Position numbers and translations under genes: made by a program. Shown here one piece after another: positions 1-24,616 of a stretch of DNA of 28,689 nt (position 1 is its first letter; each line of letters begins with the position of its first letter). Source of the stretch: a virus; the IMG/VR virus record IMGVR_UViG_3300044733_003165, positions 1 to 28,689 of that record; one strand, 5' to 3'. Below the pieces are notes generated by a model. It did no database searches. It was not told the DNA's origin and was given only the letters and a program-made list of their open reading frames with translations.

Positions 1-627
1 TTGTGTATTGATTAAATCTTCACACAATAATGCGTTATCATATTTAAACATCCCACGACTAGTTTTTGGATTTTGAATATCTTCCATAAAATAATATCCA
101 TTTTGTTTTACTAAATCTTTTGCTTGCCACAAACTTACTGCCATATGATTTGGCCAATGACTACCATCTTCAATAAAAAAATCAAAATTATTTGGGCATT
201 GTTCTTTTATTTCATTCCAATCGCAAAAATTTCCTTGATCAGCATATATAAAATTTACACCCAATTCATTTAAAAAATTTATATCTTTAGTTTTATCTTC
301 TAAATAATTACCCCAAAAATTATCCATCCCATATAATTCTACATTTTTAAAAAATGTTAACCACATTTTTTGTGAAGCGTATGGAAATCTTTTATCACAA
401 ATTCCTATTTCAAATAATTTAACATGATCTTCTCTATAATTATTCATATACTTTTCATAGGTTATAGTATATGACATAGAAAAGTGCTCTGGATAATCTT
501 TACTCCATGATAAAGATTTTGAATCAGCATTACCTTTATCTGTTTCAAACAAATTTGCAATTTCTGTTAATGATTTAGTATTGTCATACAGTGAACGATT
601 ATAATTTGTATTTTTAAAAAGTTTCAT
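1..627 (-). CDS. Class I SAM-dependent methyltransferase, C-terminus cut by window edge
   Basis: This open frame starts at ATG 627 and runs off the window start with no stop, giving 209 codons. Visible parts are YEKYM, then a motif-I-like strand LFEIGI, then YGMDN, and later FFIEDGSHWPNH. The IEDGSH element recurs in class I methyltransferases that act on sugars or macrolide sugars. The likely role is O-methylation of a sugar made or attached by the neighbouring cassette, which is an inference from context. Its start joins the upstream gene through TAATATG (stop, one T, start) with no Shine-Dalgarno sequence, suggesting coupled translation. Methyltransferase class is fairly sure; the substrate is unknown. 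It could instead belong to the related cephalosporin-hydroxylase-like group. Confidence 0.7.
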   Translation of the reverse strand, partial: MKLFKNTNYNRSLYDNTKSLTEIANLFETDKGNADSKSLSWSKDYPEHFSMSYTITYEKYMNNYREDHVKLFEIGICDKRFPYASQKMWLTFFKNVELYGMDNFWGNYLEDKTKDINFLNELGVNFIYADQGNFCDWNEIKEQCPNNFDFFIEDGSHWPNHMAVSLWQAKDLVKQNGYYFMEDIQNPKTSRGMFKYDNALLCEDLINTQ

Positions 628-628
628 A

Positions 629-2365
629 TTAAGTTTTCACATTCATATCTGTCAATTCGCCTGGAATAATTTTTCCATTTTTATCAATTCCTTTAGAAAT
701 AACTTTTGGTTCGTGTTGTTCATTAGGATCACTGAATATTTCAATTAAAATACTTTCTTTATTTGAAAATACTTCATTTAATTTAGGATCTAACATATCA
801 TTTGTTTTAATAGAAATATACTTCAAACCAAATGCATTAGCTATTTTTTCAAATGAAGGAATTGAAACACCAGAAGAAATTTCAGAAGCAACTAAATTTC
901 CTTTAAAAAATGAATTTTGAGTTAATTTGATTGATAAGTAACCACAATTATTTAGAATAAATATTTTTATTGGTACTTTATTATGACAAACTGTTTCTAA
1001 TTCTTGTAGATTCATCATAATACTTCCATCTCCTTCTATGCATATTATCTCTTTTTTACTTCCATAATGTGCTCCAATTGCTGCTGGCAATCCATAACCC
1101 ATTGGAGCAGTTCCTTCATTACTAAAAAGTCTTTGTTTGCCTTTTAAGGTTATAGTTTTTAAAGGTACTACATGAGCTGTTCCATCACTAGTTACTATAA
1201 TTGAATCTTCTGATAAATATTTTTCTAATTTATTAGAAAAAACATAGCTACTAACATAATCTTTTAAAAACTTATGTTTTTCTAAAACTAATATTTCATT
1301 ATTTCTATATTTTTTAATATTATTTTGCCATTCACTTATATCATTTACTTTAACATTTTTAATCATGTTAAAAAACAAACGAAGATCAATACACCAACCT
1401 ATTTTATTTTTAAATTTTAATTTTTTAATTTCGTTTTTATCAACATCGATTATAAATTTAGTTGCCCCAGGAGCAAATTTTGATTGATCATATCCAATCA
1501 TTTTTGGATTTAATCTAGATCCAAGAGATATTACTAAATCTGACTCCTGTATAATTTGATTTGATGTGCGTTGTCCTAAAATTCCAAACCTACCAGCATA
1601 ATATTCATAATCAGAATTTACAACATCAACCGCTGAATGGGGTCCAGTTAAGACTGGAATACCTGTTTTATTTAAAAATTCTAGTAAATTATCAACATTA
1701 TTTGACACACGAACACCATTACCAACAACAACAACTGGTCTTTTACTTTTTAACAGTAATTTTTGAAGTTTATTTAAATATAACGAATTGATTATTTTAT
1801 TATTTTTTTGCTTTGGTAAAATAAATTTTTTTAATTTAGAAATATTAACTTCGCTGCTCTGTATGTCAAGTGGTATATCTAACCACACAGGCCCAGGACG
1901 CCCAGAAACTGCTAAATGATATGCCTTTTCTAAATGGTACAATATACTGTTTTTATCTGTTATAGTAACAGCATATTTCGTCATAGGTCTTACTGTATCA
2001 ACAATATTATATTCTTGCTGTCCTATTTGCCTACAACCAGTTCCATTTGACAATTGATCAGATGGAACTTGTCCAGAAATTACAATCATAGGAATAGAAT
2101 CCTGAAAAGCACATAAAACTCCTGTAAGAGCATTTGTTCCACCAGGACCAGTAGTGACCAAAACACAACCAGGTATATTTTTTATTCTTGCATATGCTTC
2201 TGCTGCCATAGAACAAGCTTGTTCATGATGATTGCAGATATATTTTAATTCTTTATTTTTCCCCAAAGAATCAATTAAATGCATACATCCACCACCAGAC
2301 ACAGTAAAAACTGTGTCTATTCCTTTATCTTTTATAAATTTAAAAACTAAATCAGAAATTTTCAT
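629..2365 (-). CDS. Thiamine diphosphate-dependent enzyme, acetolactate synthase family
   Basis: A 578-residue protein with the full three-domain ThDP fold. The cofactor-activating Glu is E48 in NHHEQACSMAAEAYAR. TTGPGGTNA follows near residue 75, and the ThDP/metal motif runs from GDG (about 445) to NN (about 473). This family decarboxylates pyruvate and transfers the two-carbon unit. Relatives such as YerE of yersiniose synthesis add it to a keto-sugar to make a branched-chain sugar. The neighbouring 4,6-dehydratase would supply a keto-sugar, so a sugar role is more likely than branched-chain amino-acid synthesis; this is inference. An in-frame ATG at 2377 exists, but family members usually begin M-K-x-S-D as at 2365, and the TAATATG junction with the upstream stop supports 2365. 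Fold certain, substrate unknown. Confidence 0.85.
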   Translation of the reverse strand: MKISDLVFKFIKDKGIDTVFTVSGGGCMHLIDSLGKNKELKYICNHHEQACSMAAEAYARIKNIPGCVLVTTGPGGTNALTGVLCAFQDSIPMIVISGQVPSDQLSNGTGCRQIGQQEYNIVDTVRPMTKYAVTITDKNSILYHLEKAYHLAVSGRPGPVWLDIPLDIQSSEVNISKLKKFILPKQKNNKIINSLYLNKLQKLLLKSKRPVVVVGNGVRVSNNVDNLLEFLNKTGIPVLTGPHSAVDVVNSDYEYYAGRFGILGQRTSNQIIQESDLVISLGSRLNPKMIGYDQSKFAPGATKFIIDVDKNEIKKLKFKNKIGWCIDLRLFFNMIKNVKVNDISEWQNNIKKYRNNEILVLEKHKFLKDYVSSYVFSNKLEKYLSEDSIIVTSDGTAHVVPLKTITLKGKQRLFSNEGTAPMGYGLPAAIGAHYGSKKEIICIEGDGSIMMNLQELETVCHNKVPIKIFILNNCGYLSIKLTQNSFFKGNLVASEISSGVSIPSFEKIANAFGLKYISIKTNDMLDPKLNEVFSNKESILIEIFSDPNEQHEPKVISKGIDKNGKIIPGELTDMNVKT

Positions 2366-2366
2366 A

Positions 2367-3440
2367 TTAAATATCATCCACGATTAAAGGAGAATCCTTT
2401 TTTAAATTTCTCAAAGCAATCGCATCATTTTCAATAAAATCTCTTGAGGTTAATTGATTTATTTCTTTCTGATATGGAATAGCAGAATATAAATCATCTA
2501 AACTCACACTTTCTCCTTTATTTATATCTCTTTTTAGATACAATCCGCGATATAAAGATTCTAAATATTTTTTTTCCTTGTCATCAATAATTCTTCTAAT
2601 TAATGATGAAGAACCACACATTTCAACTGCTTTATTGTATGATTTAAACCAAGTATCAATTTGTTCTGGTGTTGAACAATAACTAGATATTTCAGTTTGT
2701 TGGTGATCTTTTGGATATGGAATATCTATGTGTCTCTCCCATGTTCTAACGCCCTTACCATATGATATCAACACAGAAGAATACCAATCATGATATTCGT
2801 GAGTAGATAATCCTATAACTATATTTGGATATTTTAGTTTTAAATAATCAATCTGATGTAATTCTAATTCATTATCTTCGCTTGGATATTTTGAAACACA
2901 ATGATTAACTGATATTAAAATATTTCTATTTGTAAAATACTTAACAACATCATCTATCTGTTTATCATTTGCTCCACCCGTTGAAATAATTACAGGTTTT
3001 TTTGTTGATGCTATTTTTTTAATTAATATCCAATCATTAATATCAGCACTTGCTATTTTTATGATAGGTAAATTCATAGAAACACACCAATCTACAGATT
3101 GCTCATCAAATGGAGTTGCCATTGGAATACAATCATGTTTACGAATATAATTAATGAGTTCTTCAAATTCGTCATATGTTAATTTTGTTTTACATGTTTT
3201 TTGAATATATCTACTTCTTTTAGGTAAATTAGTTAACTCTTCACCTTTTCCTTCAGTTTTAAAATCTTTATGAATAAATGTATCTACATCTCTAAACTGT
3301 AATTTAATTGCTGCTTTAACTTTATTTGTTTTTACAACTTTAGCAAATTGTTTTACAATTTGCTTTCCTCGTTTTAATGATCCCCAATGATTATTTGCTA
3401 ACTCAAGAACAAATAAATTTTCAAATATATTATTTACCAT
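2367..3440 (-). CDS. neuB: NeuB-type nonulosonic acid synthase (sialic acid synthase family)
   Basis: A 357-residue protein of normal NeuB length. The N-terminal TIM barrel has LELANNHWGS, IKLQFRD, KIASADINDW, PVIISTGGA, VNHCVSKYPSEDNE and GLSTHEYHDW, all typical of the family. The last 60 or so residues (RGLYLKRDINKGESVSLDDL) form the SAF (antifreeze-like) domain that lids the active site in the dimer. The enzyme condenses phosphoenolpyruvate with an aldose (N-acetylmannosamine-like or a modified hexosamine) to a nine-carbon acid. No NeuA-type CMP-transferase or NeuC-type epimerase is visible here, so the product and its activation are unresolved. It overlaps the dehydratase gene by 7 nt, indicating one operon. 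Family is sure; exact substrate is not. Confidence 0.85.
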   Translation of the reverse strand: MVNNIFENLFVLELANNHWGSLKRGKQIVKQFAKVVKTNKVKAAIKLQFRDVDTFIHKDFKTEGKGEELTNLPKRSRYIQKTCKTKLTYDEFEELINYIRKHDCIPMATPFDEQSVDWCVSMNLPIIKIASADINDWILIKKIASTKKPVIISTGGANDKQIDDVVKYFTNRNILISVNHCVSKYPSEDNELELHQIDYLKLKYPNIVIGLSTHEYHDWYSSVLISYGKGVRTWERHIDIPYPKDHQQTEISSYCSTPEQIDTWFKSYNKAVEMCGSSSLIRRIIDDKEKKYLESLYRGLYLKRDINKGESVSLDDLYSAIPYQKEINQLTSRDFIENDAIALRNLKKDSPLIVDDI

Positions 3441-4387
3441 ATAAATTTTTCCTGATAGTGTTTTACTATATCTTTTAATTCTTTTTCAAAAATTTTAATT
3501 GGATTCCAACCTAATGATCTTAGTTTAGAATCATTCAATGCATATCTTACATCCTGTCCAGTTCGATTGAAAGACAAATCAATATAATTTTGTAATTTTT
3601 CTTCTGGAATATTATGACATTTCAAAATTTGATTTACTGTTTCAAAATTACTTTGTTCAAATCCACCACAAATATTGTATATTTCATTTTTAACATCTTT
3701 ATCAATAATATTTAAAACTGCTCTTGCTGTATCTTCAGCATGTAACCAATTTCTTATAGGTGTTCCATTGTTATGAAGTGGTATTTTTCTCCCCAAAGCA
3801 AGATATTTACATGATTTTGGAATTAATTTTTCAACATATTGACCTATTCCATAATTATTTGTTGGTCTAACAATAACATATGGGATTCCATACGTTCTAG
3901 CCCAGGCTAATATTAGCATATCTGCTGCTGCTTTAGTCGCTGAATATGGATTGGATGGCTTAAGTAAATCTGTTTCTGTGTGAGCACCTTCTTCAATATC
4001 TCCATAAACTTCATCAGTGCTAAAATGAAACAAGGTTGGTATTTTTCCAGTTTCTTGCCTATAATTTCTTATCAATTCTAATAAATTATGTACACCGTCT
4101 ATATTTGATTTAATAAAATCATCACTATTTGCTATAGAATTTCCAACATGTGTTTCTGCTGCTGTATTAATTACATAATCACAGTCATATAAAAATTTAA
4201 GATCATTTATATCACAATGTACAAATGAAAAGTTTTCATATTTTGTAAATTCATTTAATAAATCTTTATTTGCAGCATATGTTATTTTATCAACACCTTT
4301 TACATACCATCCTCGCTGTAAACATAAACGAGTTATATATGAACCAATAAAGCCTAAACAACCTGTAACATATACAATTTTTTTCAT
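3434..4387 (-). CDS. rmlB: dTDP-glucose 4,6-dehydratase-like sugar-nucleotide dehydratase (extended SDR)
   Basis: A 317-residue extended short-chain dehydrogenase/reductase. The NAD-binding loop GCLGFIG is at residues 9-15, the dehydratase signature STDEVYGD has the catalytic Asp-Glu pair at D125-E126, and the catalytic Tyr/Lys pair is Y148 and K152 in NPYSATKAAAD. This combination is that of RmlB, which converts dTDP-glucose to dTDP-4-keto-6-deoxyglucose; a UDP- or CDP-sugar is also possible. The 4-keto product could feed an aminotransferase or the ThDP enzyme downstream. An in-frame ATG at 4405 exists, but 4387 puts the Rossmann strand at the N-terminus as usual and has an AGAG-type site upstream. 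The largest gap of the glycan cassette precedes it. Confidence 0.85.
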   Translation of the reverse strand: MKKIVYVTGCLGFIGSYITRLCLQRGWYVKGVDKITYAANKDLLNEFTKYENFSFVHCDINDLKFLYDCDYVINTAAETHVGNSIANSDDFIKSNIDGVHNLLELIRNYRQETGKIPTLFHFSTDEVYGDIEEGAHTETDLLKPSNPYSATKAAADMLILAWARTYGIPYVIVRPTNNYGIGQYVEKLIPKSCKYLALGRKIPLHNNGTPIRNWLHAEDTARAVLNIIDKDVKNEIYNICGGFEQSNFETVNQILKCHNIPEEKLQNYIDLSFNRTGQDVRYALNDSKLRSLGWNPIKIFEKELKDIVKHYQEKFIW

Positions 4388-4482
4388 TTTAAAATTCTCT
4401 ATCATATTTTATTAACAGATGTCAATATATAAAATATTTTTATTTAAATATAAGTAATAATTGATAACATATATTTATGTTC
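4388..4482 (-). promoter_or_regulatory. AT-rich 95-nt leader of the dehydratase/neuB operon with possible promoter
   Basis: No gene is visible in this gap. On the minus strand it holds CATAAATA at 4478-4471, one mismatch from the T4-type late box. That box lies within a short inverted repeat, AACATA/TATGTT. A TTGACA hexamer is at 4425-4420, but no convincing -10 follows at 16-18 nt. A promoter here would separate dehydratase, NeuB, the ThDP enzyme and the methyltransferase from the three glycosyltransferases upstream. AT-rich sequence makes such matches common, so this is weak. Confidence 0.25.
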
Positions 4483-5181
4483 TTATAAAAAATTATTAAA
4501 GTAAGATTTTAATATTCTTTCTCTATGTCTATTAGAGGCTCCAGTTAAATGACATAAAAAAGATTTTTCATTCCATGGATAAGGTATATCTCCTCTAGTG
4601 GCCCATTGTTCAGCATACATTTCTCTAGTTGGAGCTGCATTTAAATAATCATGATCAAGAATTTTCATCATATTTTTATAAGGTGTTCTAAAATATAAAA
4701 AATTCATAGCTTCTTGTTCATGTTTAGCTTTTCCAACAAGACTATAAAATACTTCAAGAAAATGTTCAGTATTTTTATTTTTAACAAACATAAAATTACC
4801 GCCACTTATACTATATTTTCCATTCCAATCATATGATGCATAGAATGTTATGTCTTCTTCTATTGGAAAATTTTCTATTTTAATTTGATCATTTGTTATT
4901 ATGGAATCGGCATCAATCCACACTACTATATCATAATAGTTTAACATATCGGATGTTCTAGCCGCTCTCATAAATCCCATATTACTTTCATCTATATTTT
5001 TTTCTTTATCAGAACCAAAATCTTCAATTTTTAATAAATCATAACCATGTTTAGAAGCATATCTTTGTTTAGAAGGAAATGTCATTTCTGCTATTTGTTT
5101 AATAGGCAAATCACCACCAGCAGAATAAACATCTAGTTGTAATTTCCCTATTCCAGTTACTAATAATACTCGCTTATTCAT
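4483..5181 (-). CDS. DxD glycosyltransferase, GT34-like (GT-A fold)
   Basis: A 232-residue protein. The metal- and nucleotide-sugar-binding DxD motif is D90-A91-D92 in VVWIDADSII. It is preceded by a Rossmann-like N-terminus (RVLLVTG) and the segment QRYASKHGYDLL, as in the galactosyl/mannosyltransferase GT34-like families. SGGNFMFVKN and HEQEAMNF fit the acceptor side and the second metal-contacting region. It has no signal peptide or membrane segment, so it would act in the cytoplasm. Its start overlaps the stop of the upstream GT10 gene as ATGA, a sign of coupled translation. Sugar donor and acceptor cannot be read from the sequence. The glycosyltransferase call is solid; the family number is a best guess. 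Confidence 0.75.
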   Translation of the reverse strand: MNKRVLLVTGIGKLQLDVYSAGGDLPIKQIAEMTFPSKQRYASKHGYDLLKIEDFGSDKEKNIDESNMGFMRAARTSDMLNYYDIVVWIDADSIITNDQIKIENFPIEEDITFYASYDWNGKYSISGGNFMFVKNKNTEHFLEVFYSLVGKAKHEQEAMNFLYFRTPYKNMMKILDHDYLNAAPTREMYAEQWATRGDIPYPWNEKSFLCHLTGASNRHRERILKSYFNNFL

Positions 5182-6011
5182 AATTTTAATATTCTTTCTA
5201 TAATGTTATCACAATATTGTTTTGATTTTTCAAAATTAATATTTATTTTTTCTAAATTACTATAGTAATAATCATCAGTAAATTTAAAATTTATAAGATC
5301 ATCAATATTTAACCAATATGATGTATCAAAAAAATCTGATATGTTTGGACATCCCCAATATATAGGGATTGTTTTAGTTATCAGACAATCTACTATTTTT
5401 TCAGAAAAATAATTTACTTCTTGTGTGCTTTCAATTGCTACTGAATACATGCTATTAAATAGATGTATTTTATCATCATTGGGTAATGTTGGAACATTTG
5501 GTATCATAAAACGTGTTGAACTATAAAATTTTTTAGATACTAAAATTTTATCTTGATTTTGAAATATAATATGTCTTAGATTATATCCAGGTTTTCCATA
5601 TAAAGATCCACATACCATAGAAAGACTTAATTCTTTCTGAAGAGTTACTAGATCATTAGTAAATTTTCCAAATGAATCTGGATGATGTTTTGACTTATTT
5701 AACCATGTTGTTCCGTACACCATGAACTTTGCGTTTGAACATTTATCTAAAACTTCTGGATTTGATGTTACAATTTTATCATACTTTTTGTGATGCTTTA
5801 TAATATTTTCTACAGGTTCAACCCATCTAGAAGTTGTTGGTTCATTTACATGACAAAATATTTTATATGAATTTTCACCAATAAACGATGGTTCTCCATT
5901 TGGAAATTTATTAGTACCAAATCTTGTAAAATATATTTCTGTTGGATGCATGATATCTGGAATATCTTCAGAAGATATCATATAATCAGCATTCAATATT
6001 ACAGGTTTCAT
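5178..6011 (-). CDS. Glycosyltransferase, GT10 (alpha-fucosyltransferase-like)
   Basis: A 277-residue protein whose C-terminal half carries the GT10 donor-binding signature: FNSMYSVAIEST, then YFSEKIVDCLITKTIPIYWGCP and SDFF. This corresponds to the GT10 pattern of Y-F-S/T-E-K-L/I, a long helix and P-V/I-Y-W-G. GT10 enzymes transfer fucose or a related 6-deoxysugar from GDP. The N-terminal half is divergent, as usual for the acceptor domain. It overlaps both neighbours by ATGA-type junctions (6011/6008 and 5181/5178). It is a diverged paralogue of the GT10 gene at 6702-7544, sharing the signature block but little elsewhere. The product is cytoplasmic by appearance, with no transmembrane segment. 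Confidence 0.75.
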   Translation of the reverse strand: MKPVILNADYMISSEDIPDIMHPTEIYFTRFGTNKFPNGEPSFIGENSYKIFCHVNEPTTSRWVEPVENIIKHHKKYDKIVTSNPEVLDKCSNAKFMVYGTTWLNKSKHHPDSFGKFTNDLVTLQKELSLSMVCGSLYGKPGYNLRHIIFQNQDKILVSKKFYSSTRFMIPNVPTLPNDDKIHLFNSMYSVAIESTQEVNYFSEKIVDCLITKTIPIYWGCPNISDFFDTSYWLNIDDLINFKFTDDYYYSNLEKININFEKSKQYCDNIIERILKL

Positions 6012-6691
6012 TGATTCACCAAAAACTTATTTCCTGGGCTTTGAAATTTAATATTGTGTTCATCAAAACCCATATCTCTCAATACCTGTTCTTTTGATTC
6101 TCCATCCGCTAATCCCATTGTAATTACTGGTTCTCCACCTTGAATCGGTATACCAGGCCAAACACAATAAGCATTTCCTAAAAAAGCCATACGAACACCA
6201 GTATTCTCGTTTATCATTTTCATGAATATCTTTAACAAAACTTCATGATCAAATGCAATATTTGCTTGTCGTTCTAATTCTTCACTTGCCTCAATCCAAG
6301 CATATATAAATTCATAAGATTTTGGTGTTTGATTTAAGTATATTGGTGATGCTTTTGGCATACCAATAGTTGTATCTTCCTTTGTAGGAACTTTAGGAAA
6401 TGCCATAGCTAAATCAACTTTATCGTGAAACTCATCAAAAACTTCAAGAGGTTTATGTACAATTGAATCTACATCTAACCAAACAAGTGGTGTTCTTAAT
6501 TCGTTCATCATCTCAAGAATAAATCTAGGTTTTGATAAACAATTAGAACGATAATTTCCCTTTGATGGTTTATGTCTAATAAAGTTTGGTACGGAATGTT
6601 CCTCAAGATTTTTTTTCAATCTTGTGGCATGATCGCTATAATAAGTGCGACCATCTACGTCAGCATAAAAAGAAATCACAGGTGTCTTCAT
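6008..6691 (-). CDS. DxD glycosyltransferase (GT-A-type nucleotide-diphospho-sugar transferase)
   Basis: A 227-residue protein. The DxD motif is D73-V74-D75 in TPLVWLDVDSIV, preceded by a CLSKPRFILEMM helix as in small GT-A enzymes. It shares general architecture with the 232-residue enzyme at 4483-5181 but is clearly diverged. ATG 6691 lies just after an exact late-type box (TATAAATA, 6706-6699) that also contains the stop codon of the preceding gene. There is no Shine-Dalgarno sequence, so this may begin a separate transcript covering three overlapping glycosyltransferase genes. Function in glycan assembly is inferred from fold and neighbours; donor and acceptor are unknown. Confidence 0.7.
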   Translation of the reverse strand: MKTPVISFYADVDGRTYYSDHATRLKKNLEEHSVPNFIRHKPSKGNYRSNCLSKPRFILEMMNELRTPLVWLDVDSIVHKPLEVFDEFHDKVDLAMAFPKVPTKEDTTIGMPKASPIYLNQTPKSYEFIYAWIEASEELERQANIAFDHEVLLKIFMKMINENTGVRMAFLGNAYCVWPGIPIQGGEPVITMGLADGESKEQVLRDMGFDEHNIKFQSPGNKFLVNQ

Positions 6692-6698
6692 GGTCTAG

Positions 6699-6706
6699 TA
6701 TTTATA
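6699..6706 (-). promoter_or_regulatory. T4-type late promoter box TATAAATA before the 227-aa glycosyltransferase gene
   Basis: The minus strand reads TATAAATACTAGACC followed by ATG 6691. This matches the first ten bases (TATAAATACT) of the extended T4 late consensus recognised by gp55-RNA polymerase. With the usual geometry (box at -13 to -6) the start of transcription would be at 6693, two bases before the ATG. Box and stop codon of the upstream gene overlap. The match is exact, but AT-rich DNA gives chance matches. Confidence 0.5.
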
Positions 6707-7544
6707 TTTGTTTTATCATGTGATAAAGAATGTCATCTGCATTCTCTAATTTTTTCACACGTTCGAAATTATGTTTAATTGCATCCATCTTACTATAATA
6801 TAATTCTTCTGTTAATTGTGATGGATCAAATGATGAATCAAGTGTAATAATTCCTTCTGAATTGAAATAATTACCAATATCAGGTGTACCCCAATATACA
6901 GGTATTGTTCCAGTTGCAAAACAGTCTGTTAATTTTTCTGTAAAGTAAGTTGGATACTTATCATTTTCAATAACAATTGAAAACATATATGGATTCAAGG
7001 CACGACTTTTATCTCCCCAAGGTCGTTTCTCATATCCAAATCTTTGTGATCCTAATACACCACCATATAAATCAACTTTATCTTTCCATTTGTCTGCCAA
7101 AGCATGACGAACTTGATGACCTATTGTTGCTTGTTTTGGTGATGCTATTAGAGATACTAATTTATTCTTTTCAAATATTTGTTGATCTTCTATCCAAGGA
7201 AGGTTACTTCCAGCAAACGAGAAATGTAATTTTTTATTTTTACTGCAAAATGTCCTATCAGAAAAATAAACAGCATCATAGCTGTCACAAATCCGTTCAA
7301 GATGTTTTTCAAATAAATCTTTAGGAAAATTAAATTCATAAAATATCGCCCTTGATTCACAAATCCATGCTATCTTTTTTTCGTTAGGCTTCTTTACGTA
7401 ATTTATTCCATGTGAAATAGCTGCATCTATAAAAACCTTGATATTGCTATCTTCTTTCGTCCATGAAAATAATTTAGGTTTCTTGTCAGAACAGGAAGAC
7501 TGATCTGTATTAAACGGTGCTCCAATTGCTTGCATTATATCCAT
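6702..7544 (-). CDS. Glycosyltransferase, GT10 (alpha-fucosyltransferase-like)
   Basis: A 280-residue protein with a clear GT10 C-terminal domain at about residues 184-227: NPYMFSIVIEN, YFTEKLTDCFATGTIPVYWG and PDIGNYF. The N-terminal part has KIAWICESRAI, resembling the acceptor half of bacterial fucosyltransferases. It is the first gene after regA, starting 12 nt past the regA stop, at the place where T4 carries gene 43. An alternative in-frame ATG at 7535 has a weak GGA upstream; neither start has a strong ribosome site. A GDP-fucose-like donor is the family norm, but no fucose-synthesis gene (gmd/fcl) is in the window, so the donor may come from the host. Confidence 0.78.
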   Translation of the reverse strand: MDIMQAIGAPFNTDQSSCSDKKPKLFSWTKEDSNIKVFIDAAISHGINYVKKPNEKKIAWICESRAIFYEFNFPKDLFEKHLERICDSYDAVYFSDRTFCSKNKKLHFSFAGSNLPWIEDQQIFEKNKLVSLIASPKQATIGHQVRHALADKWKDKVDLYGGVLGSQRFGYEKRPWGDKSRALNPYMFSIVIENDKYPTYFTEKLTDCFATGTIPVYWGTPDIGNYFNSEGIITLDSSFDPSQLTEELYYSKMDAIKHNFERVKKLENADDILYHMIKQI

Positions 7545-8007: not shown

Positions 8008-8384
8008 CCACCAGTATTTAATGCCTTCTTTAGATGATTTATTTGCTCTTTTGTTAGAATTTTGGAGGCTTCTACTGCCTTTTTATCCGAATATCCGTAA
8101 TATTGCTTGATAATTGATATATCATCAGAATCAGTGGTCTTTTCTTTATGCCACTTGCTAAATCGTTTCTTTTTTCGAATATTCAGAAGATAATAATCAT
8201 ATTGCATCTTTTTACTAATATTATTATAAAAATTCATCATATTTGCCTCAAAAAGAGTATCTGGAAAATATGATAAAGATTTATTGATAATATAAGGAAC
8301 GTAAACCCTCTCGCAACCAGGATCTACGTTCATTAGATTTTTCTTATTATCATTAATGCTATTGAGAAAATCAAAGATTTCCAT
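7995..8384 (-). CDS. 62: Clamp-loader small subunit gp62
   Basis: A 129-residue protein in the position of T4 gene 62, between 44 and regA. It is shorter than T4 gp62 (187 residues). Recognisable shared features are YVPYIINKSLSYFPD (compare YSKFMVENALSQFPE in T4), the basic KKKRFSKWHKE (GKRYGKWAK in T4), IIKQYYGYSDKKAVE and ILTKEQ. The T4 C-terminal extension after ILT is largely missing. gp62 joins four gp44 ATPases to form the loader that opens the gp45 clamp. The start overlaps the gene 44 stop as TAATG, as expected for the coupled pair. The call rests on position plus limited similarity. Confidence 0.82.
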   Translation of the reverse strand: MEIFDFLNSINDNKKNLMNVDPGCERVYVPYIINKSLSYFPDTLFEANMMNFYNNISKKMQYDYYLLNIRKKKRFSKWHKEKTTDSDDISIIKQYYGYSDKKAVEASKILTKEQINHLKKALNTGGNIK

Positions 8385-9328
8385 TAGATAAACTCACATG
8401 TCATCATAAGTTCTACCAAGCAAGCCACCATATTGATCTCCTGATCGCTCACAAATGCAGCCTTGTACTGATACTCCCCAAGAACAATAATGGCTCCAGG
8501 AATGCTCATAGGGGCTAGATATGCATTTAGATTATCATAAATCTTTCTAAAAATATCAGTTTCTGACAAATGCACATTTGTTGCAACCCACTTTCGAACA
8601 TTTGCGAAGTCCTTATTTTTCATAAATGAAATTAGATTCTTGATTTCATTATCAGCAATATTAATAAGAATACCTTCATCAATCTTACCAGAGACAGAAT
8701 ATCGCTGAAGTTCGTTTAGAATTCTACGAAAATCTGGGTAATGCTTCATGATAAGCTTGGCCAAAGCCTTTTTATCACAAATAACATTCTCATTTTTAAG
8801 AATATATTCACATCGTTCCAAAATTCCAGCACAGATAGAAGGACGTTCCTCGTTAGAGATTGTAAAATCGATACAAGTACATCGTGAATGAATTGGTTCA
8901 ATGATTCGTGACTTGTAGTTACAAGTCAAAATAAAACGACAATTACTTGAAAATTCTTCAATAGCTCCACGAAGTGCTGGTTGAATACTCTGTGCGTTTG
9001 AATAATCAAACTCATCAAGAATAACAACCTTTTTTGAATTTTCAGAAAATGAAACTGTGCTTGCAAATTGTCGAATCTTTGTTCGAAGTGTATCGATGTT
9101 TCCATCTTCAGAACAATTAATAAGAATCCAATCTGCATTCAATTCATTACAAAGTGCCTTGGCAACAGTAGTTTTTCCTGTACCAGCAGTACCAGAAAAT
9201 AGAAGATTTTGTGGTTCTCCTTTAGCAACCATGTCCTTGAAGGTCTTCTTCAAGGACGATGGGAGAATACATTGATCAATGGTTTGTGGTCGATATTTTT
9301 CGACCCAAAGAAATTCAGTATTATTCAT
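8384..9328 (-). CDS. 44: Clamp-loader large subunit gp44 (AAA+ ATPase)
   Basis: A 314-residue AAA+ protein (T4 gp44: 319). It has WVEKYRPQTIDQC at the N-terminus, Walker A SGTAGTGKTTVAKAL, Walker B VVILDEFDYS, the sensor-1 region FILTCNY and the arginine-finger SRC box IHSRCTCIDF. It hydrolyses ATP to load the sliding clamp at primer ends. The frame is open upstream to 9364 inside gene 45, but ATG 9328 gives the conserved start MNNTEFLWVEKYRP. It follows the gene 45 stop as TAATATG without a Shine-Dalgarno sequence. Base composition is visibly less AT-rich than the glycan genes. Confidence 0.95.
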   Translation of the reverse strand: MNNTEFLWVEKYRPQTIDQCILPSSLKKTFKDMVAKGEPQNLLFSGTAGTGKTTVAKALCNELNADWILINCSEDGNIDTLRTKIRQFASTVSFSENSKKVVILDEFDYSNAQSIQPALRGAIEEFSSNCRFILTCNYKSRIIEPIHSRCTCIDFTISNEERPSICAGILERCEYILKNENVICDKKALAKLIMKHYPDFRRILNELQRYSVSGKIDEGILINIADNEIKNLISFMKNKDFANVRKWVATNVHLSETDIFRKIYDNLNAYLAPMSIPGAIIVLGEYQYKAAFVSDQEINMVACLVELMMTCEFI

Positions 9329-9329
9329 A

Positions 9330-10016
9330 TTATGCAGTATACCGTGAGTTAGGTTCCATTGCAAACCAATAAGAGAGATTCAGATTTTCATTATCAAATT
9401 GAACTGCTACGTTCTTTGCAAATGAAATCTCATAATCTCCAGCCAAAAGACGAATATTTTCCATCTTAAAATTAAGTTCAAATTCAGCACCATCAGCATT
9501 ACCTTCAAGTTCTACCTTGTAGCTATTACTTGTTGGATCCTTAAGATCACAGATGATCGCGTAGATAATACTACCATCACTCTGGAATGAAAGATCTGGA
9601 AGTTGTAGAACTGATGAAATTCGCTGAAGTTCATTGAACATACCTTCTTCGATACGAGTCTTTACCGTAACTGGTGGCATATTTACTGACTTCGTTGGAT
9701 ATGTGAGAAGTCGAGGTTCCGAATAATAATAATTTACAACTGAATTATTCGGTCCAATGATCTTTACACTCTTTTCACCAAATTCAAACTGAGGGTTGCT
9801 GAAAAGACTCACGACTCCAAGGAATTTGTTAAGATCCCAGATACCAAATTCGACATCAAAAGTCTCTTCGATAACTGCCTCTCCCATACCACTCTTGGAT
9901 GGTGTGATTGTCTTGATTACATTCCCAGGCTTTACAAGAATATTTGAATTCATATTTGCAAAGTTCTTGAGAATAGAAAGTGTTGTTTTACTGATTGTAA
10001 TTGCTGTAGATGTCAT
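9330..10016 (-). CDS. 45: Sliding clamp gp45 (DNA polymerase processivity factor)
   Basis: A 228-residue protein, the same length as T4 gp45, beginning with ISKTTLSILKNFANMNSN (T4: LSKDTTALLKNFATINSG). It continues with the FDVEFGIWDLNKFLGVVSL block and the C-terminal NIRLLAGDYEISFAKN (T4: NMKMQPGNYKLLLWAK). The trimeric ring tethers the polymerase and, in T4, also activates late transcription by contacting gp55 and gp33. A good sigma70-type promoter lies immediately upstream, and the ATG is only about two bases from its predicted transcription start. The loader genes 44 and 62 follow in the same operon. Confidence 0.95.
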   Translation of the reverse strand: MTSTAITISKTTLSILKNFANMNSNILVKPGNVIKTITPSKSGMGEAVIEETFDVEFGIWDLNKFLGVVSLFSNPQFEFGEKSVKIIGPNNSVVNYYYSEPRLLTYPTKSVNMPPVTVKTRIEEGMFNELQRISSVLQLPDLSFQSDGSIIYAIICDLKDPTSNSYKVELEGNADGAEFELNFKMENIRLLAGDYEISFAKNVAVQFDNENLNLSYWFAMEPNSRYTA

Positions 10017-10552: not shown

Positions 10553-12262
10553 TCAGATCATCTTACTGAAATTATTTTTCTTTTCAAAGTGAATGACATG
10601 GTTGAATTTATCCACTATTTGATCGGCTTTATGACTGATTACAAACACGTTTGAATTTACACCTAATGTATTTAGTAATTTCATTACTTCATCTGTTCCA
10701 ACTGAATCCAGTGATGAATCAAAAACCTCATCCAAGATAAGCAAATTGCAATTAACACTATTTTTTAGTTTAGCAATTTCCCTCCATGCCAATAGAAGAG
10801 ATAGATCAATACGCATCTTTTCTCCCTCACTAAAATTCATGTAAGAAAACTCATCTCGATTTCGACTTTTAATAACTTCTTGAAAATTTTCATCTAGATA
10901 AAATTGAACAAAGAAATCCATAGATTTTAAATACTTATTGATATTTTTATTCATTGATGGAAGATAATGCTTGATGATCTTAGCCTTTACTCCACTATCC
11001 TTTAGAATATCTGATATTTGTTCAAGTTGAATATATTCTTCCTTCTTTGATTCCTTTTCTTCTTCAAATATTTTCAATTGAATATTATACTCATTCAATT
11101 TATCTTTTTCTTTTACAATGTCGGTTTGATTTGTTTCTGTCTTCTTCAACTTAGATTTAGCGTGTTCAATTGTCATATTAATTATGGCAATCTGATTCTT
11201 TAAATCTTTGATTTTATCATCAATATTATTATTTGCTTTAAGTTTTTCTTTGATGGAAGAGATGCTTGACGTTATCGTTTCGATTTGACTTTCGAACGTC
11301 TTGTTAGCTTCCTCGAACTGCTTAATATTTTTTTCGATCTCTTCGAGGTTAGTTTTTTTCGTTTCCTCTGTAATTTTGCCTTTACATTTCGAACAATTTT
11401 CTTCTTTCTCATAAAATTGTTTTTCCTCTATGGCATTTGCCATCTTAAGAGAGATCTGAGCAGTAAACCTCTGAAATTTAACTAAATCTTTTTCTAGAGT
11501 AATTAAATCTTGTTCATCAATCTTTATCTTATTATTATGATATTCTGATATAGTACTATTTAGAGTATCAATGGTGGATTGGTTACTTTGAATGGTGTTA
11601 TTCAATTCTTCGATTTCATCCTCTGACAATCCTACTGTTTTATTAATAATAATTTTTTGATAATCAATCTTTTGTTTTTGATTTTCAATCTTATTACTTA
11701 GTTCTCTAAGATTTTCTTTACTTTGTAATATCTTACCCTTCAATAATGTATTCATATTTGTAAATACATTAATATCTAAAATATTTTCAATAACGGATCT
11801 ACGATCAGCCGCTGTCAATTGCATGAATGGAATGAAGGATGAACTACCAAGAATTACTACTTGAGTAAATGTCTTGTAGTTCATTTTAATAATTTGCTGT
11901 TCAAGTAAGTCTTGGTAATCTGATGTTTTTGCATCCTGATTAATTAATTTACCATTTTTAATTATCTCAAATAATTTTGGACCAAGACCACGACGAATTA
12001 CATATTCGTCAGATCCAATTGAAAAATACAATTCAACTAAACATTCTTTCGTGTTGATTGAATTCTGAAGCTGTGGAATATTAATTTTTCTAAATGGTTT
12101 ACCAAACAAAGCAAAGGTAATCGAATCCAATAATGCAAATGATTTACCACTTCCATTTTTTCCACACACCAAAGTTGTTGGAGATTTTAACAAATCAAGT
12201 TCGGTAAACTTATTACCGAATGATCCGAAATTTTTAAACTTTATCTTCTTGAAGATGATCAT
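10553..12262 (-). CDS. 46: Recombination endonuclease subunit gp46 (Rad50/SbcC-like ATPase)
   Basis: A 569-residue SMC-type ATPase (T4 gp46: 560). Walker A CGKNGSGKS is at about residues 34-42. Long coiled coils flank a zinc-hook CSKC near residue 295. The ABC signature FSEGEKMRIDLS and Walker B LLILDEVFDSSLD are near the end. With gp47 it forms the Mre11/Rad50-like complex that resects DNA ends for recombination-dependent replication and breaks down host DNA. Its start lies inside the last codons of the 41-aa small gene, giving a 29-nt overlap. Order 47-46 on one strand matches T4. Confidence 0.95.
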   Translation of the reverse strand: MIIFKKIKFKNFGSFGNKFTELDLLKSPTTLVCGKNGSGKSFALLDSITFALFGKPFRKINIPQLQNSINTKECLVELYFSIGSDEYVIRRGLGPKLFEIIKNGKLINQDAKTSDYQDLLEQQIIKMNYKTFTQVVILGSSSFIPFMQLTAADRRSVIENILDINVFTNMNTLLKGKILQSKENLRELSNKIENQKQKIDYQKIIINKTVGLSEDEIEELNNTIQSNQSTIDTLNSTISEYHNNKIKIDEQDLITLEKDLVKFQRFTAQISLKMANAIEEKQFYEKEENCSKCKGKITEETKKTNLEEIEKNIKQFEEANKTFESQIETITSSISSIKEKLKANNNIDDKIKDLKNQIAIINMTIEHAKSKLKKTETNQTDIVKEKDKLNEYNIQLKIFEEEKESKKEEYIQLEQISDILKDSGVKAKIIKHYLPSMNKNINKYLKSMDFFVQFYLDENFQEVIKSRNRDEFSYMNFSEGEKMRIDLSLLLAWREIAKLKNSVNCNLLILDEVFDSSLDSVGTDEVMKLLNTLGVNSNVFVISHKADQIVDKFNHVIHFEKKNNFSKMI

Positions 12263-17285: not shown

Positions 17286-17312
17286 AAAAAGGGTGGCTTT
17301 CGCCACCCTTTT
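17286..17312 (-). terminator. Strong Rho-independent terminator after gene 23
   Basis: On the minus strand AAAAGGGTGGC pairs with GCCACCCTTTT around a GAAA tetraloop (11-bp stem, arms 17312-17302 and 17297-17287), continuing in a run of five T. It begins 24 nt past the gene 23 stop. This is the most stable hairpin seen in the window and should isolate the very abundant capsid mRNA from the recombination genes. Confidence 0.9.
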
Positions 17313-18793: not shown

Positions 18794-19729
18794 TTAACCT
18801 TTTATGGCTTTGAGATGCTTACTGATTGAATTGACATAAACATTCATATCTTCATTGATAAATGGTTTAGATGAAGTAGTAGTTTCTTCGGTGAGGCTTT
18901 CTGCTTCAGGTGACTTACCATTAAAATATGACTCTTTGAGTATTTTTACTTTTTCTTTGTATTGATCAACTGAATTGAATTCAATAGACTCGCAGAGTGA
19001 AGCAAGTTTTTCAACTTCTGTATCTGCAAGATCTGATGAAAGTTCCATGAAAACATTAGCACATTCATTTACAATATTTTTCTCTTGTAATTCCATGTGC
19101 TGTTTCATGAGTTGATTAAGATTTTCTTCAAGTTGACGATTCTCGGCAAATAATTCATCAACGAGATCGACCTTTTCTTCTGGAACTTCAATATAGTTAT
19201 TTTCAAACAACTCTTTGAGTCCTTGGATAAAGTTTTCGGCAATCTCGGTACGGAAACCTTGCTCGACTTGAAGACGATTTTCTTCCATCCATTCATTGAG
19301 AACATATCCAAGATAACCGTCTACTTGCTCAGTGAGAGTAGATGCTACTGCGGATACTTCTTCCTCAATTACTTCTTGTGATGCTTGTAAAATTGCTTGT
19401 TCGATGATTGCTACTTTTTCATTCAAAGCAGCTTCAAACAAGGTTGCAGCCTTTGCTTTGAATTCATCTGAAAGATCTTGTCCTTCAAAAAGTGCATCAA
19501 CATAATCAGTAATATCTAATTGTACTGATTCTTTGGTTTCTTCCATATCATCTTCTGGTTCTTCTGTGGTGTTTTGCTTTGGTGCTGCACCACCTTGAGG
19601 TGAAAGTGAAGCCATGTTTGCTTTTGCTAAACCGTCTTTTGCAATTGGTTTAGCAAACATAGGAGTTACGCCATTCGAGGCGAAAGTTCCCTTTCCTGTT
19701 GCATCTTGTACATCTTGACCTTGATTCAT
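18794..19729 (-). CDS. 22: Prohead scaffold protein gp22
   Basis: A 311-residue acidic, mostly helical protein (T4 gp22: 269) between the protease and capsid genes, as in T4. The first 70 residues are low-complexity and Gly/Pro rich. From LDITDYVDALFEGQDLSDEF (about 74-93) onward it is predicted coiled helix with many Glu. It contains candidate gp21 sites, for example LTE-Q in STLTEQVDGY and ELE-type steps, in line with scaffold being digested during maturation. A GGAG site lies seven bases before the ATG, and an exact late promoter box lies 22 nt upstream. It forms the assembly core around which gp23 polymerises. Confidence 0.88.
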   Translation of the reverse strand: MNQGQDVQDATGKGTFASNGVTPMFAKPIAKDGLAKANMASLSPQGGAAPKQNTTEEPEDDMEETKESVQLDITDYVDALFEGQDLSDEFKAKAATLFEAALNEKVAIIEQAILQASQEVIEEEVSAVASTLTEQVDGYLGYVLNEWMEENRLQVEQGFRTEIAENFIQGLKELFENNYIEVPEEKVDLVDELFAENRQLEENLNQLMKQHMELQEKNIVNECANVFMELSSDLADTEVEKLASLCESIEFNSVDQYKEKVKILKESYFNGKSPEAESLTEETTTSSKPFINEDMNVYVNSISKHLKAIKG

Positions 19730-19750: not shown

Positions 19751-19758
19751 TATTTATA
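19751..19758 (-). promoter_or_regulatory. T4-type late promoter box TATAAATA for genes 22-23
   Basis: An exact TATAAATA lies on the minus strand in the 72-nt gap before gene 22. The transcript would start near 19745, giving a 16-nt leader with the GGAG site. Upstream of the box the gap has a short hairpin. This is the best-placed late promoter in the window: it precedes the two most abundant assembly proteins, and the run ends at the gene 23 terminator. Confidence 0.65.
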
Positions 19759-19801: not shown

Positions 19802-20560
19802 CTAATTCGTAGGGTCTGGATTATTTGGTGGTTTGTATAAATTTGGTTTGGGATATACATCATCCTCATCATATTTAAATCCCAATATACCTGTATTTTG
19901 TGCTTGAAGATCTTTTAATCTTTGTTCTGTTGCTCTCAATGCAGCAATACGACTTATTCTAGATGATCTTGGTAATAAATCTATTTCTTGAGTAGATCTT
20001 CTCGCTAATTCTTGTTGTGTTGATCTTATCTGTGATGCTAATTGAGCAGCAGTCATTAATGGTTTTGGACCAGATCTAGCTGTTACTGGAGATGTAGATG
20101 TTTGTGGTTCTTGAGGTTGATTTGTTCTAAAAGCATTTGATACAGCTCTGCCAGCTCTCAAAACACTACCTAAGTTTGTTACTCCCTTTAAAGGATTAGT
20201 TACATTACCACGTGCGGTTGGAAAATTTAAACCACTAGATATAGCAGCTCTTAATCCCATTGTGGCGAGTTTAGGTAAAGCAGCCGCCATAATAGATGGT
20301 TTTTGTACAGGCAATGCACCCATTTTTTGACTATATTGACCAGTTGTTATTGGACCCCTAACAGTTCTCAATCCTTTTCTGGCAGCAAGTGCTAATCTAC
20401 TACCTAATTTCTGAAATAGTGGAGTACCACCACTAAAGAATTTTTCATTGATTTGTTTTATACTATTATTTTCTTTTAAATCATTATGAACTTTACAGTA
20501 AATAGCATATCTTGCATTTCTGCAAGATATGCTTGATGAAATATTTGTTTCGTTTTTCAT
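19802..20560 (-). CDS. Basic hypothetical protein between protease and scaffold genes (252 aa)
   Basis: A 252-residue basic, Ala/Arg/Thr/Pro-rich protein with no recognised domain. The ATG overlaps the gene 21 stop as ATGA and has GAGGA four bases upstream, so the start is well supported. The first 39 residues are polar, with two cysteines (C13, C22), and end at INE, which fits the loose gp21 cleavage pattern (L/I-x-E). After this the protein is basic (SRLALAARKGLRTVRG) with a Pro-rich tail. Its place inside the head-assembly block suggests a head component, perhaps an internal protein packaged with DNA and trimmed by gp21, but this is inference. A perfect 13-bp hairpin lies within its first 20 codons. 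Confidence 0.75.
   Translation of the reverse strand: MKNETNISSSISCRNARYAIYCKVHNDLKENNSIKQINEKFFSGGTPLFQKLGSRLALAARKGLRTVRGPITTGQYSQKMGALPVQKPSIMAAALPKLATMGLRAAISSGLNFPTARGNVTNPLKGVTNLGSVLRAGRAVSNAFRTNQPQEPQTSTSPVTARSGPKPLMTAAQLASQIRSTQQELARRSTQEIDLLPRSSRISRIAALRATEQRLKDLQAQNTGILGFKYDEDDVYPKPNLYKPPNNPDPTN
20504..20533 (-). repeat. Perfect 13-bp hairpin with GAAA tetraloop inside the start of the 252-aa gene
   Basis: Arms 20504-20516 and 20521-20533 are exactly complementary, and the loop on the transcribed strand is GAAA, a GNRA tetraloop. It begins about 25 nt after the gene 21 stop, within codons 10-19 of the next gene. No T-run follows, so it is not a standard terminator. It could be an RNase processing site or a brake on translation of the downstream gene. 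Confidence 0.7.
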
Positions 20561-21198
20561 AACTTCCTCAAAAAGTTTTCAAACATTTTTATGGCTTTTT
20601 TTTCCATATCTTTTTTACTGGTCTTTTGCAATTGTTTTTTCATTTCAGACAATTCTTTTTCTCTAAGTAATCCATTGTGCCATACCCACTCTTTTCCTTC
20701 CAGAATACCATTTACAAAGGCATCTGGAGCTGATGGATCAGCAACAATATCAATAGCACTTAAAGTAAAGTCTGATTGAACTTCATTAATTTCGTTTACT
20801 CTTTTTAATGTTCCCATACCTCTTGAAGAAACACCCAATAAAGCACCTTCATCAATCAATGATTTAACAATTTTACCCATCGGTGTATCTAATATTTTAG
20901 CTTTACCGATGAAATTATTACCTTCTTGATTTAATTCTACAATCATGTGTGAGACACGATCTAGATTTACAGATGGACCAGATGGGTGATTTAATTCACC
21001 TAGAGCACGTTTTTTATCAACGTATTCCTTGACATAACGGCCACACTCGTTTTCAAGAATATTAATGCTATATTTTCTTCCATTACGATTCACAGTTTCA
21101 CCTTGCATCATAATACCTTCAATATAATAATTTTTACCATTGTCGGTAGACTCTACAAGAGTTTTTACGTTTTCAATTGTTTCTGTGATTAACTTCAT
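20557..21198 (-). CDS. 21: Prohead core protease gp21
   Basis: A 213-residue serine protease (T4 gp21: 212). The catalytic His is H71 in GELNHPSGP, and the catalytic Ser lies in LLGVSSRGMG (S124/S125), followed by the conserved LSAIDIVADPSAPDA. The fold and His-Ser arrangement are those of the T4/herpesvirus prohead protease group. It is activated inside the prohead, cuts gp23, gp22 and core proteins after L/I-x-E, then degrades itself. An AAGGA site lies five bases before the ATG. It sits between the core protein gene and the 252-aa gene, where T4 has scaffold gene 22 directly after 21. Confidence 0.95.
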   Translation of the reverse strand: MKLITETIENVKTLVESTDNGKNYYIEGIMMQGETVNRNGRKYSINILENECGRYVKEYVDKKRALGELNHPSGPSVNLDRVSHMIVELNQEGNNFIGKAKILDTPMGKIVKSLIDEGALLGVSSRGMGTLKRVNEINEVQSDFTLSAIDIVADPSAPDAFVNGILEGKEWVWHNGLLREKELSEMKKQLQKTSKKDMEKKAIKMFENFLRKL

Positions 21199-23567: not shown

Positions 23568-24110
23568 TTAGGGATAAAATACAGAATAATCATAACTCAA
23601 TGTCACAGTAAATTCTGCAAAAACATCAGTGGCATCGTTTGTCAATTCTATTGGAGAAATATCAATAGGAAATACGTTAATTAAAGAACAAAAAGTTTTA
23701 TATTTAGAGTTGGATTGAGCAGCAGTCATATCGTTATAGGAAACTACCCATTCTGCAGCATAGGCTTTCCAATTCATCTTGTCATGATTACCACTGTTGA
23801 TGAAATCAATCCATCTTTGGAAAAAAGTTCTTAAATCTTCTGATTGGTGTTCTGATGAATATACCTGTATTGCCCAATCAGCTGCTGATCTTTCTGCTGG
23901 GAATTTCACAGGTCTACCTCTATAATTTAGATTTATAGAACCAACACTAGAACCTGGAAATTGAGTTGCTTTGCAATAAATTTCAAGTGCCTGGTTAAAG
24001 ACACTTGAATTGATTTGTGATCTTAATGAAGATGGAATGCCACCAGTTACTTTAAATCTGTTGGACTTTACTCCTACGAAATATTTTCTAAAATCATCTA
24101 TTTTACCCAT
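23568..24110 (-). CDS. 19: Tail tube protein gp19, second paralogue
   Basis: A 180-residue tail-tube protein, paralogous to its upstream neighbour. Shared elements are MGKIDDFRKYF, FPGSSVGSINL, YRGRPVKFPAERSAADWAIQ, then the VSYNDMTAAQSN, VFPIDISPIEL and FAEFTVTLSYDY segments. It carries an insertion of about ten residues in the N-terminal quarter (SQINSSVFNQALEI) relative to its twin. ATG 24110 overlaps the twin's stop as TAATG; a TTG further upstream is in frame but lacks a site. Tube subunits stack as hexamers inside the sheath. Two gene copies suggest that one may be a specialised ring, for example a cap or terminator, but this is inference. Confidence 0.85.
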   Translation of the reverse strand: MGKIDDFRKYFVGVKSNRFKVTGGIPSSLRSQINSSVFNQALEIYCKATQFPGSSVGSINLNYRGRPVKFPAERSAADWAIQVYSSEHQSEDLRTFFQRWIDFINSGNHDKMNWKAYAAEWVVSYNDMTAAQSNSKYKTFCSLINVFPIDISPIELTNDATDVFAEFTVTLSYDYSVFYP

Positions 24111-24616
24111 TAGATATATTGCCAATAATCGTAAGTGAGTGTTAAAGTGAATTCAGCGAATGTATCTGGTGCATCATAGCTCAAATCTACAGGTGAAATG
24201 TCTACTGGAAAACAATGAACCAGTTTAATTTTACGTTTGTATAATGGGGTAGATGATGTATTTGTCATGTCCTGATAATGAACTTCCCAATCAGCAGTGT
24301 AATCATAATTTACTTCGTGATCTGATCTACTATCCATTTTATCGATCCAGTCTTCAATAACTTTACGAAGGTCAGTTTTTGATGAATCATATACCTGTAC
24401 TGCCCAATCAGTATATGTTCTTTCACCTGAGAATTTCACAGGTCTTCCTTTGAAACCAACTGGAATGATTCCTATACTTGAACCAGGCACAGATCCTGCC
24501 TTAGCATAGATTTTAAAATCTGGAATATCAACATTAACTGGTGTTTTACCAAAAATTTCAAATCTATTTGCTCTTACACCCTTAAAAGATTGTCTGAAAA
24601 TATCTATCTTTCCCAT
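24110..24616 (-). CDS. 19: Tail tube protein gp19, first paralogue
   Basis: A 168-residue protein close to T4 gp19 in length (163). It has MGKIDIFRQSFKGVRANRFE, VPGSSIGIIPVGFKGRPVKF, then SGERTYTDWAVQVYDSS and the C-terminal CFPVDISPVDL, FAEFTLTLTYDYW. A GGAG site lies seven bases before the ATG, unlike its downstream twin, so it is likely the more strongly translated copy and the main tube subunit. It lies directly after the sheath gene, as in T4's 18-19 order. The twin begins by overlapping this stop. Confidence 0.9.
   Translation of the reverse strand: MGKIDIFRQSFKGVRANRFEIFGKTPVNVDIPDFKIYAKAGSVPGSSIGIIPVGFKGRPVKFSGERTYTDWAVQVYDSSKTDLRKVIEDWIDKMDSRSDHEVNYDYTADWEVHYQDMTNTSSTPLYKRKIKLVHCFPVDISPVDLSYDAPDTFAEFTLTLTYDYWQYI

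Follow-up and report, generated by a model that had tools for sequence, protein, structure and literature searches.

Stem-loops processed by RNase III occur in phage operons, and the hairpin described here resembles them in standing near a gene junction within a multi-gene transcript; it differs in lying inside an open reading frame (ORF) and in having a stem of only 13 bp. Structured gene starts have been described in T4, with hairpins in the initiation regions of genes e, 25, 38 and 43 (PMC3014915). Our hairpin likewise places structured RNA at a gene start of a T4-type phage, and its structure is conserved by paired changes, as in the leaders of T4 genes e and 25. The T4 hairpins, however, are located either ahead of the start codon or across it (PMC3014915), whereas ours begins 27 nt downstream, with the SD and AUG outside the stem. 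Strong folding 30–70 nt past the start codon, the ‘transition peak’, is under selection in 45% of the species surveyed (PMC7063772). Position, excess over synonymous shuffles and a proposed role in translation are common to this peak and to our hairpin, but the peak is a statistical mean over many genes, whereas here we find a discrete perfect hairpin with paired changes in one gene and, in related phages, a signal that is very strong in one gene, that of the portal. Reduced structure in the vicinity of start codons is the general rule among double-stranded DNA viruses (PMC3072339), so the pattern reported here is unusual, though the zones differ. Coding palindromes of unproven role also exist: the perfect inverted repeats in protein-coding genes of Nematomorpha mitochondria are dispersed, are gained and lost, and can be as long as 284 bp (PMC6649704), whereas ours is short and fixed in place. 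In the literature covered, which leaves aside preprints and most subscription papers, we found no report of this hairpin or of start-proximal structure in cyanophage portal genes.

We analysed a 28,689-nt stretch of viral DNA, hereafter the window (IMG/VR record IMGVR_UViG_3300044733_003165, positions 1 to 28,689). The hairpin lies in a 252-aa ORF within a head-gene cluster, in the order gp21-type protease, 252-aa ORF, gp22-type scaffold and gp23-type major head protein (phrog_138). The features of the locus are:

20557–21198, minus strand: gp21-type head maturation protease, the upstream gene (phrog_207, E 7.4e-79)
20563–20569, minus strand: GAGGAAG, plausible ribosome-binding site of the ORF, 3–9 nt upstream of the ATG and weaker in relatives
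20557–20560, minus strand: ATGA, in which the gp21 stop codon and the start codon of the ORF overlap, present in all three versions of the locus
19802–20560, minus strand: 252-aa ORF carrying the hairpin, basic (pI 10.6), fast-evolving and without a family match
20504–20533, minus strand: perfect stem-loop with a 13-bp stem and a GAAA loop (20517–20520) in the mRNA sense, in codons 10–19 of the ORF
19751–19758, minus strand: TATAAATA, directly upstream of gp22, which we take to be a T4-type late promoter motif
18794–19729, minus strand: gp22-type head scaffold gene, downstream

The late promoter motif occurs in the window about as often as chance predicts (6 occurrences against 5.6), and its occurrence upstream of gp22 is kept in place in the relatives examined. 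Elsewhere, positions 1–7544 (minus strand) hold a series of ORFs resembling sugar or surface-modification genes, which from their translations we presume to be thiamine-diphosphate enzyme-like, NeuB-like, epimerase-like and glycosyltransferase-like.

The product of the hairpin-carrying ORF is basic across its family (pI 10.4–11.2) and evolves fast (dN/dS 0.59–0.82), with the residues I-S-x-R-N-x-R-Y invariant in six members and forming the most conserved stretch. It is possibly an internal head protein. An AlphaFold model was uninformative (pLDDT 51.7, pTM 0.26). A gp21 cleavage motif at residues 28–30 (LKE or IME) was considered and is not relied on because L014 has LLR there, and a likeness of a SIS motif to gp22 C-termini was too weak to retain. 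An in-frame ATG in all versions, together with synonymous differences right after the stem, supports translation of the hairpin region.

The arms of the hairpin (20504–20516 and 20521–20533) are complementary at 13/13 positions with 4 nt between them, and in the mRNA sense the minus strand from 20533 to 20504 reads AGCATATCTTGCA-GAAA-TGCAAGATATGCT. An earlier note, made from the window alone, had described this exact stem with its GAAA loop in codons 10–19, behind a good ribosome site, and had judged that coding DNA rarely keeps such a stem by chance; the stem is as described, the ribosome site is plausible, and the judgement is supported. This is the longest perfect Watson–Crick hairpin of the window (loops of 3–9 nt), where first-order Markov sequences of the same composition yield stems of at least 13 bp about 0.017 times per window. 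Folded as the plus strand, the hairpin stretch reaches −18.8 kcal/mol (z −4.84), a value equalled by 0/200 shuffles. The first 120 nt of the ORF have a synonymous-shuffle z of −4.12, the minimum for the window's 32 gene starts, and all three versions of the stem exceed synonymous shuffles in stability (z −3.6, −3.4 and −3.2). The stem spans nt 28–57 of the ORF, with its first base 27 nt past the A of the ATG and 23 nt beyond the gp21 stop codon. The local folding excess is confined to nt 20–60 (−12.6 to −14.9 kcal/mol) and is near 0 at nt 0–40. The 13-bp helix is the sole helix stable across all versions, with SD/AUG pairing elsewhere differing among relatives, and the start codon is not hidden by the hairpin. 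A candidate helix between the start codon and nt 19–25 was dropped, its pair probabilities at 37 °C being at most 0.07 in 5/6 sequences and 0.21 in L014.

Although a crude pattern scanner lists the site as terminator-like, a leaky terminator or attenuator that reduces transcription beyond gp21 is highly improbable here, since G-C pairs make up only 5 of the 13 and no U-run is present in the 3′ flank (ATTTACTG); by these features the site is not a canonical terminator. The note's remarks that a T-run is missing and that a terminator is unlikely are thus right in substance. In contrast, a typical G-C-rich stem with a U-run is seen in the hairpin that follows the major head gene of this lineage. 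That hairpin (17287–17312, minus strand) comprises 11 bp with a GAAA loop, is extended to 13 bp in L074, and is likely a real terminator.

Searching with the protein sequence of the ORF identified four IMG/VR contigs, and a profile of six members identified nine. The complete stem, with 13/13 pairs, is present in 9/9 of these contigs; among 40 IMG/VR stretches matching a looser hairpin pattern, the nine that are fully paired are the same nine contigs, each with the stem directly after gp21. Three stem versions occur: the window type (the window and four contigs), the L015 type (four contigs) and the L014 type (one contig). As several contigs are near-identical, these amount to about three independent observations, not ten.

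To this group we compared 22 protease relatives at 53–64% identity (L019–L040). Neither the ORF start nor the hairpin follows gp21 in the 21 whose post-gp21 sequence was examined (L038, in which the match ends before the gene's end, was omitted; L025 ends 55 nt past the gene). Gp21 is followed by gp22 in named T4-like phages including S-CAM1, Melnitz, Sf-FS3, S-RIM2, RB14, KVP40, RB49 and Aes012. Searching 50,697 phage records by tblastn with two ORF-family members gave no match. A scan of genome contigs with the ORF-family profile gave 11 pattern matches and no relatives, and the same scan with the hairpin pattern gave two matches, both with mismatches among the variable stem positions (the neighbourhood of L099 is not a gp21 locus; L100 was examined around the match only). 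No further copy of the palindrome with up to three mismatches was found in the window or in the records of five relatives, each of which holds it in one place, and in the records searched the hairpin is not a mobile or repeated palindrome. Rfam returned no match at the gathering threshold and only microRNA-like ones below it.

To assess pairing across versions we used an alignment of six rows (five distinct) picked from ten sequences to cover the stem versions. None of the 65 pair cells is unpaired. Ten of the 13 pairs are invariant and the other three vary, each time on both sides, with one position occurring as A-U, U-A and G-C. The covariation score was reached by 1/500 shuffles, and slid controls had no two-sided change. 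Synonymous sites of gp21 differ by 43–54% among the three versions, so an intact stem is not merely the result of recent descent. The 27-nt distance from ATG to stem is constant in the three versions despite divergence of the nine preceding codons, and over the first 84 nt of the window and L015 the stem region is the best kept (28/30 identical, against 21/27 and 19/27 on its flanks).

The invariant I-S-x-R-N-x-R-Y residues may add to the conservation of the stem region, and one could suppose that this motif, being the most conserved stretch of the family, happens to have complementary codons. Such a coincidence is scarcely credible. Given the amino acids and phage codon usage, a perfect stem has a probability of 4.7e-5, 1.3e-5 and 8.1e-5 in the three versions (codon choice alone, about 1e-5), and the variable positions change as matched pairs, which by this comparison protein constraint cannot explain. 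Judged by these changes, the stem is a base-paired element kept in evolution, and the hairpin probably serves as a genuine control element of the mRNA. Loss of the stem through synonymous changes in close relatives, which the earlier note had named as the outcome that would count against it, is the reverse of what we found, as paired changes keep the stem in all nine contigs; its view that the element acts at the RNA level is most likely correct.

Perfect pairing could also be maintained by mutation, if template switching during DNA replication copied one arm onto the other and so kept the palindrome perfect without a function. Such copying has been documented in RNA genes (PMC8794818) and suggested for the Nematomorpha coding palindromes (PMC6649704); in the L014 version three pairs have changed jointly, and the lineage has a further perfect coding hairpin whose arms show paired changes. 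This second hairpin (23982–24009, minus strand; 11 pairs) lies at about nt 100 of a 177/185-aa gene at 23568–24125. Its arms differ by paired changes among the window, L015, L067 and L042, one of which, between L067 and L042, is synonymous on both sides. Its place shows that the coding hairpins of the lineage are not restricted to the start zone. We nevertheless regard mutational upkeep as rather unlikely for the post-gp21 stem, though still as a serious rival. The loop reads GAAA on the coding strand in all three versions, with no loop inversion, and length, frame and place are identical in three diverged versions. Moreover, most other coding hairpins of the window, with stems of 8–9 bp, have lost pairs in relatives. 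Six with stems of at least 8 bp, the post-gp21 hairpin among them, could be compared with relatives beyond L009, and four of these lost pairs in at least one relative, whereas the post-gp21 hairpin keeps all of its pairs everywhere; being shorter (8–9 bp), the compared hairpins are an imperfect control. One of them, an 8-bp hairpin 43 nt into a 569-aa gene (12200–12220, minus strand), is paired at 8/8 positions in the single diverged relative L057, with three base differences and G-U allowed.

The constancy of the GAAA loop on the coding strand, together with the portal start structure (below), which is kept through synonymous covariation, leads us to infer that the hairpin works as RNA. One way in which it might do so is through processing or stability, with an RNase cutting the stem (the earlier note had suggested RNase III or RNase E), or the stem blocking 3′-exonucleases, so that the gp21 mRNA would end at a defined point, separate from the ORF. 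A stable perfect stem right past the end of gp21, with its pairing kept and a GNRA-type loop, would suit this. We consider it unlikely, though a serious rival, because the stem sits inside a translated ORF, its constant distance from the ATG would not be required, and 13 bp is short for RNase III. A still less probable alternative is that the hairpin, or the DNA palindrome, is a protein operator, for example for autoregulation by the basic ORF product. Hairpin translational operators are known in T4 for gene 43 (PMC3014915), the product has a high pI (given above), and the loop and 10/13 pairs are invariant. The invariant pairs, however, coincide with the invariant amino acids IS and RY, so sequence specificity is inseparable from protein constraint. 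In addition, the product has no match to an RNA-binding family, and its structure prediction does not inform on the question.

Our best explanation, which we put forward tentatively from position and conservation, is that the start-proximal hairpin acts on early translation of the ORF, a role that is less certain than action at the RNA level. A ribosome is about 28–30 nt long, and the stem starts roughly one ribosome length past the start codon, which would leave the initiation site open. If a ribosome halted at the base of the stem, it would continue to occupy the start site and so restrict how often the next one could initiate. The outcome would be that the yield of the basic head-region protein is set relative to gp21. 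The ATGA overlap is the usual layout for termination–reinitiation (PMC6728339). That the stem holds a ribosome over the start site is our own reading, which we did not find stated for this case in the literature covered. The ORF shows its folding excess about 30–70 nt past an open start region, and this suggests that the hairpin is an extreme, discrete instance of the strong-folding zone found there. The ‘brake on translation’ proposed in the earlier note fits the position of the stem and the start-proximal folding in related phages, whereas the effect itself is something we infer. Several observations count against a translational role: the stem has only three independent versions, the signal is absent from the portal genes of the lineage itself, the start-zone effect is weak in the window's 31 other genes, and the second covarying hairpin lies outside the start zone.

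The connection to portal (gp20) genes came from a hairpin census of 43 non-redundant loci (383,776 bases), a non-random set in which many loci were chosen via gp21 or the hairpin itself. It contained 13 perfect hairpins of at least 12 bp with loops of 3–8 nt, six of them within ORFs of at least 120 aa. All six start 28–72 nt past the start codon; three are the post-gp21 hairpin and three lie in cyanophage-type portal genes. In a first test, z over nt 1–120 was at or below −2.8 in 8/13 portal genes, while the portals of the window's lineage (L015, L014) were without a start-folding signal. We then used the best 80 of 596 confirmed portal genes (L101–L180), ranked by similarity to a cyanophage portal and with near-duplicates kept. 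Within this best 80, nt 1–120 had a mean z of −4.50 (68/80 below −2.5), and later segments of the same genes had means between −0.18 and −1.67. In 207 other ORFs from the same loci, the mean z over nt 1–120 was −1.13 (31/207 below −2.5). The top portal hairpin of these 80 starts at a median of nt 42, and hairpins reach about 30 pairs.

For covariation we took 34 of the 80 portals, selected by eye for equal length and register. Their consensus structure has 35 two-sided changed cells against 11.7 in shuffles (0/500 reach it) and 1–11 in slid controls; the number of pairs with two-sided change in this consensus (five) is not above shuffles. Two covarying pairs link third codon positions (codons 6/11 and 7/10) and leave the amino acids unaffected. 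The signal is present in the isolates Bellamy (L181, z −6.5) and S-RIM2 (L182, z −2.7). Four T4-like phages outside the cyanophage group showed no clear portal signal (RB14 −2.1, KVP40 −1.7, RB49 +1.0, Aes012 −1.3), and the same four are without the post-gp21 ORF. In a 40-nt profile the 207 other ORFs are also lowest in the segment starting at nt 30, and a start-zone effect is visible at nt 20–30 in 48 ORFs of the window's relatives, the hairpin ORF itself being counted among them.

Between the post-gp21 hairpin and those of the portal genes the connection is, on this comparison, one of analogy and not of homology, and the post-gp21 hairpin may exemplify a broader pattern among these viruses. 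A more far-reaching reading, which we hold to be doubtful, is that discrete hairpins about one ribosome length inside coding sequences would be an undescribed post-transcriptional control of head-protein ratios, acting on the portal in cyanophage-type T4-like phages and on the post-gp21 ORF in a related lineage. A hairpin kept by paired changes close to the start of a head-region gene, together with the much larger portal signal of related aquatic phages, would make head-protein dosage control directly testable by synonymous changes. Since the portal gene also serves as a diversity marker for cyanophages, trees built from it would be affected by constraint on its synonymous positions.

Within the window itself, the second most structured gene start (z −3.6) belongs to a gene at 8384–9364, presumably clamp-loader-like, which carries a perfect 10-bp hairpin (9233–9257, minus strand) about 75 nt into its coding sequence.
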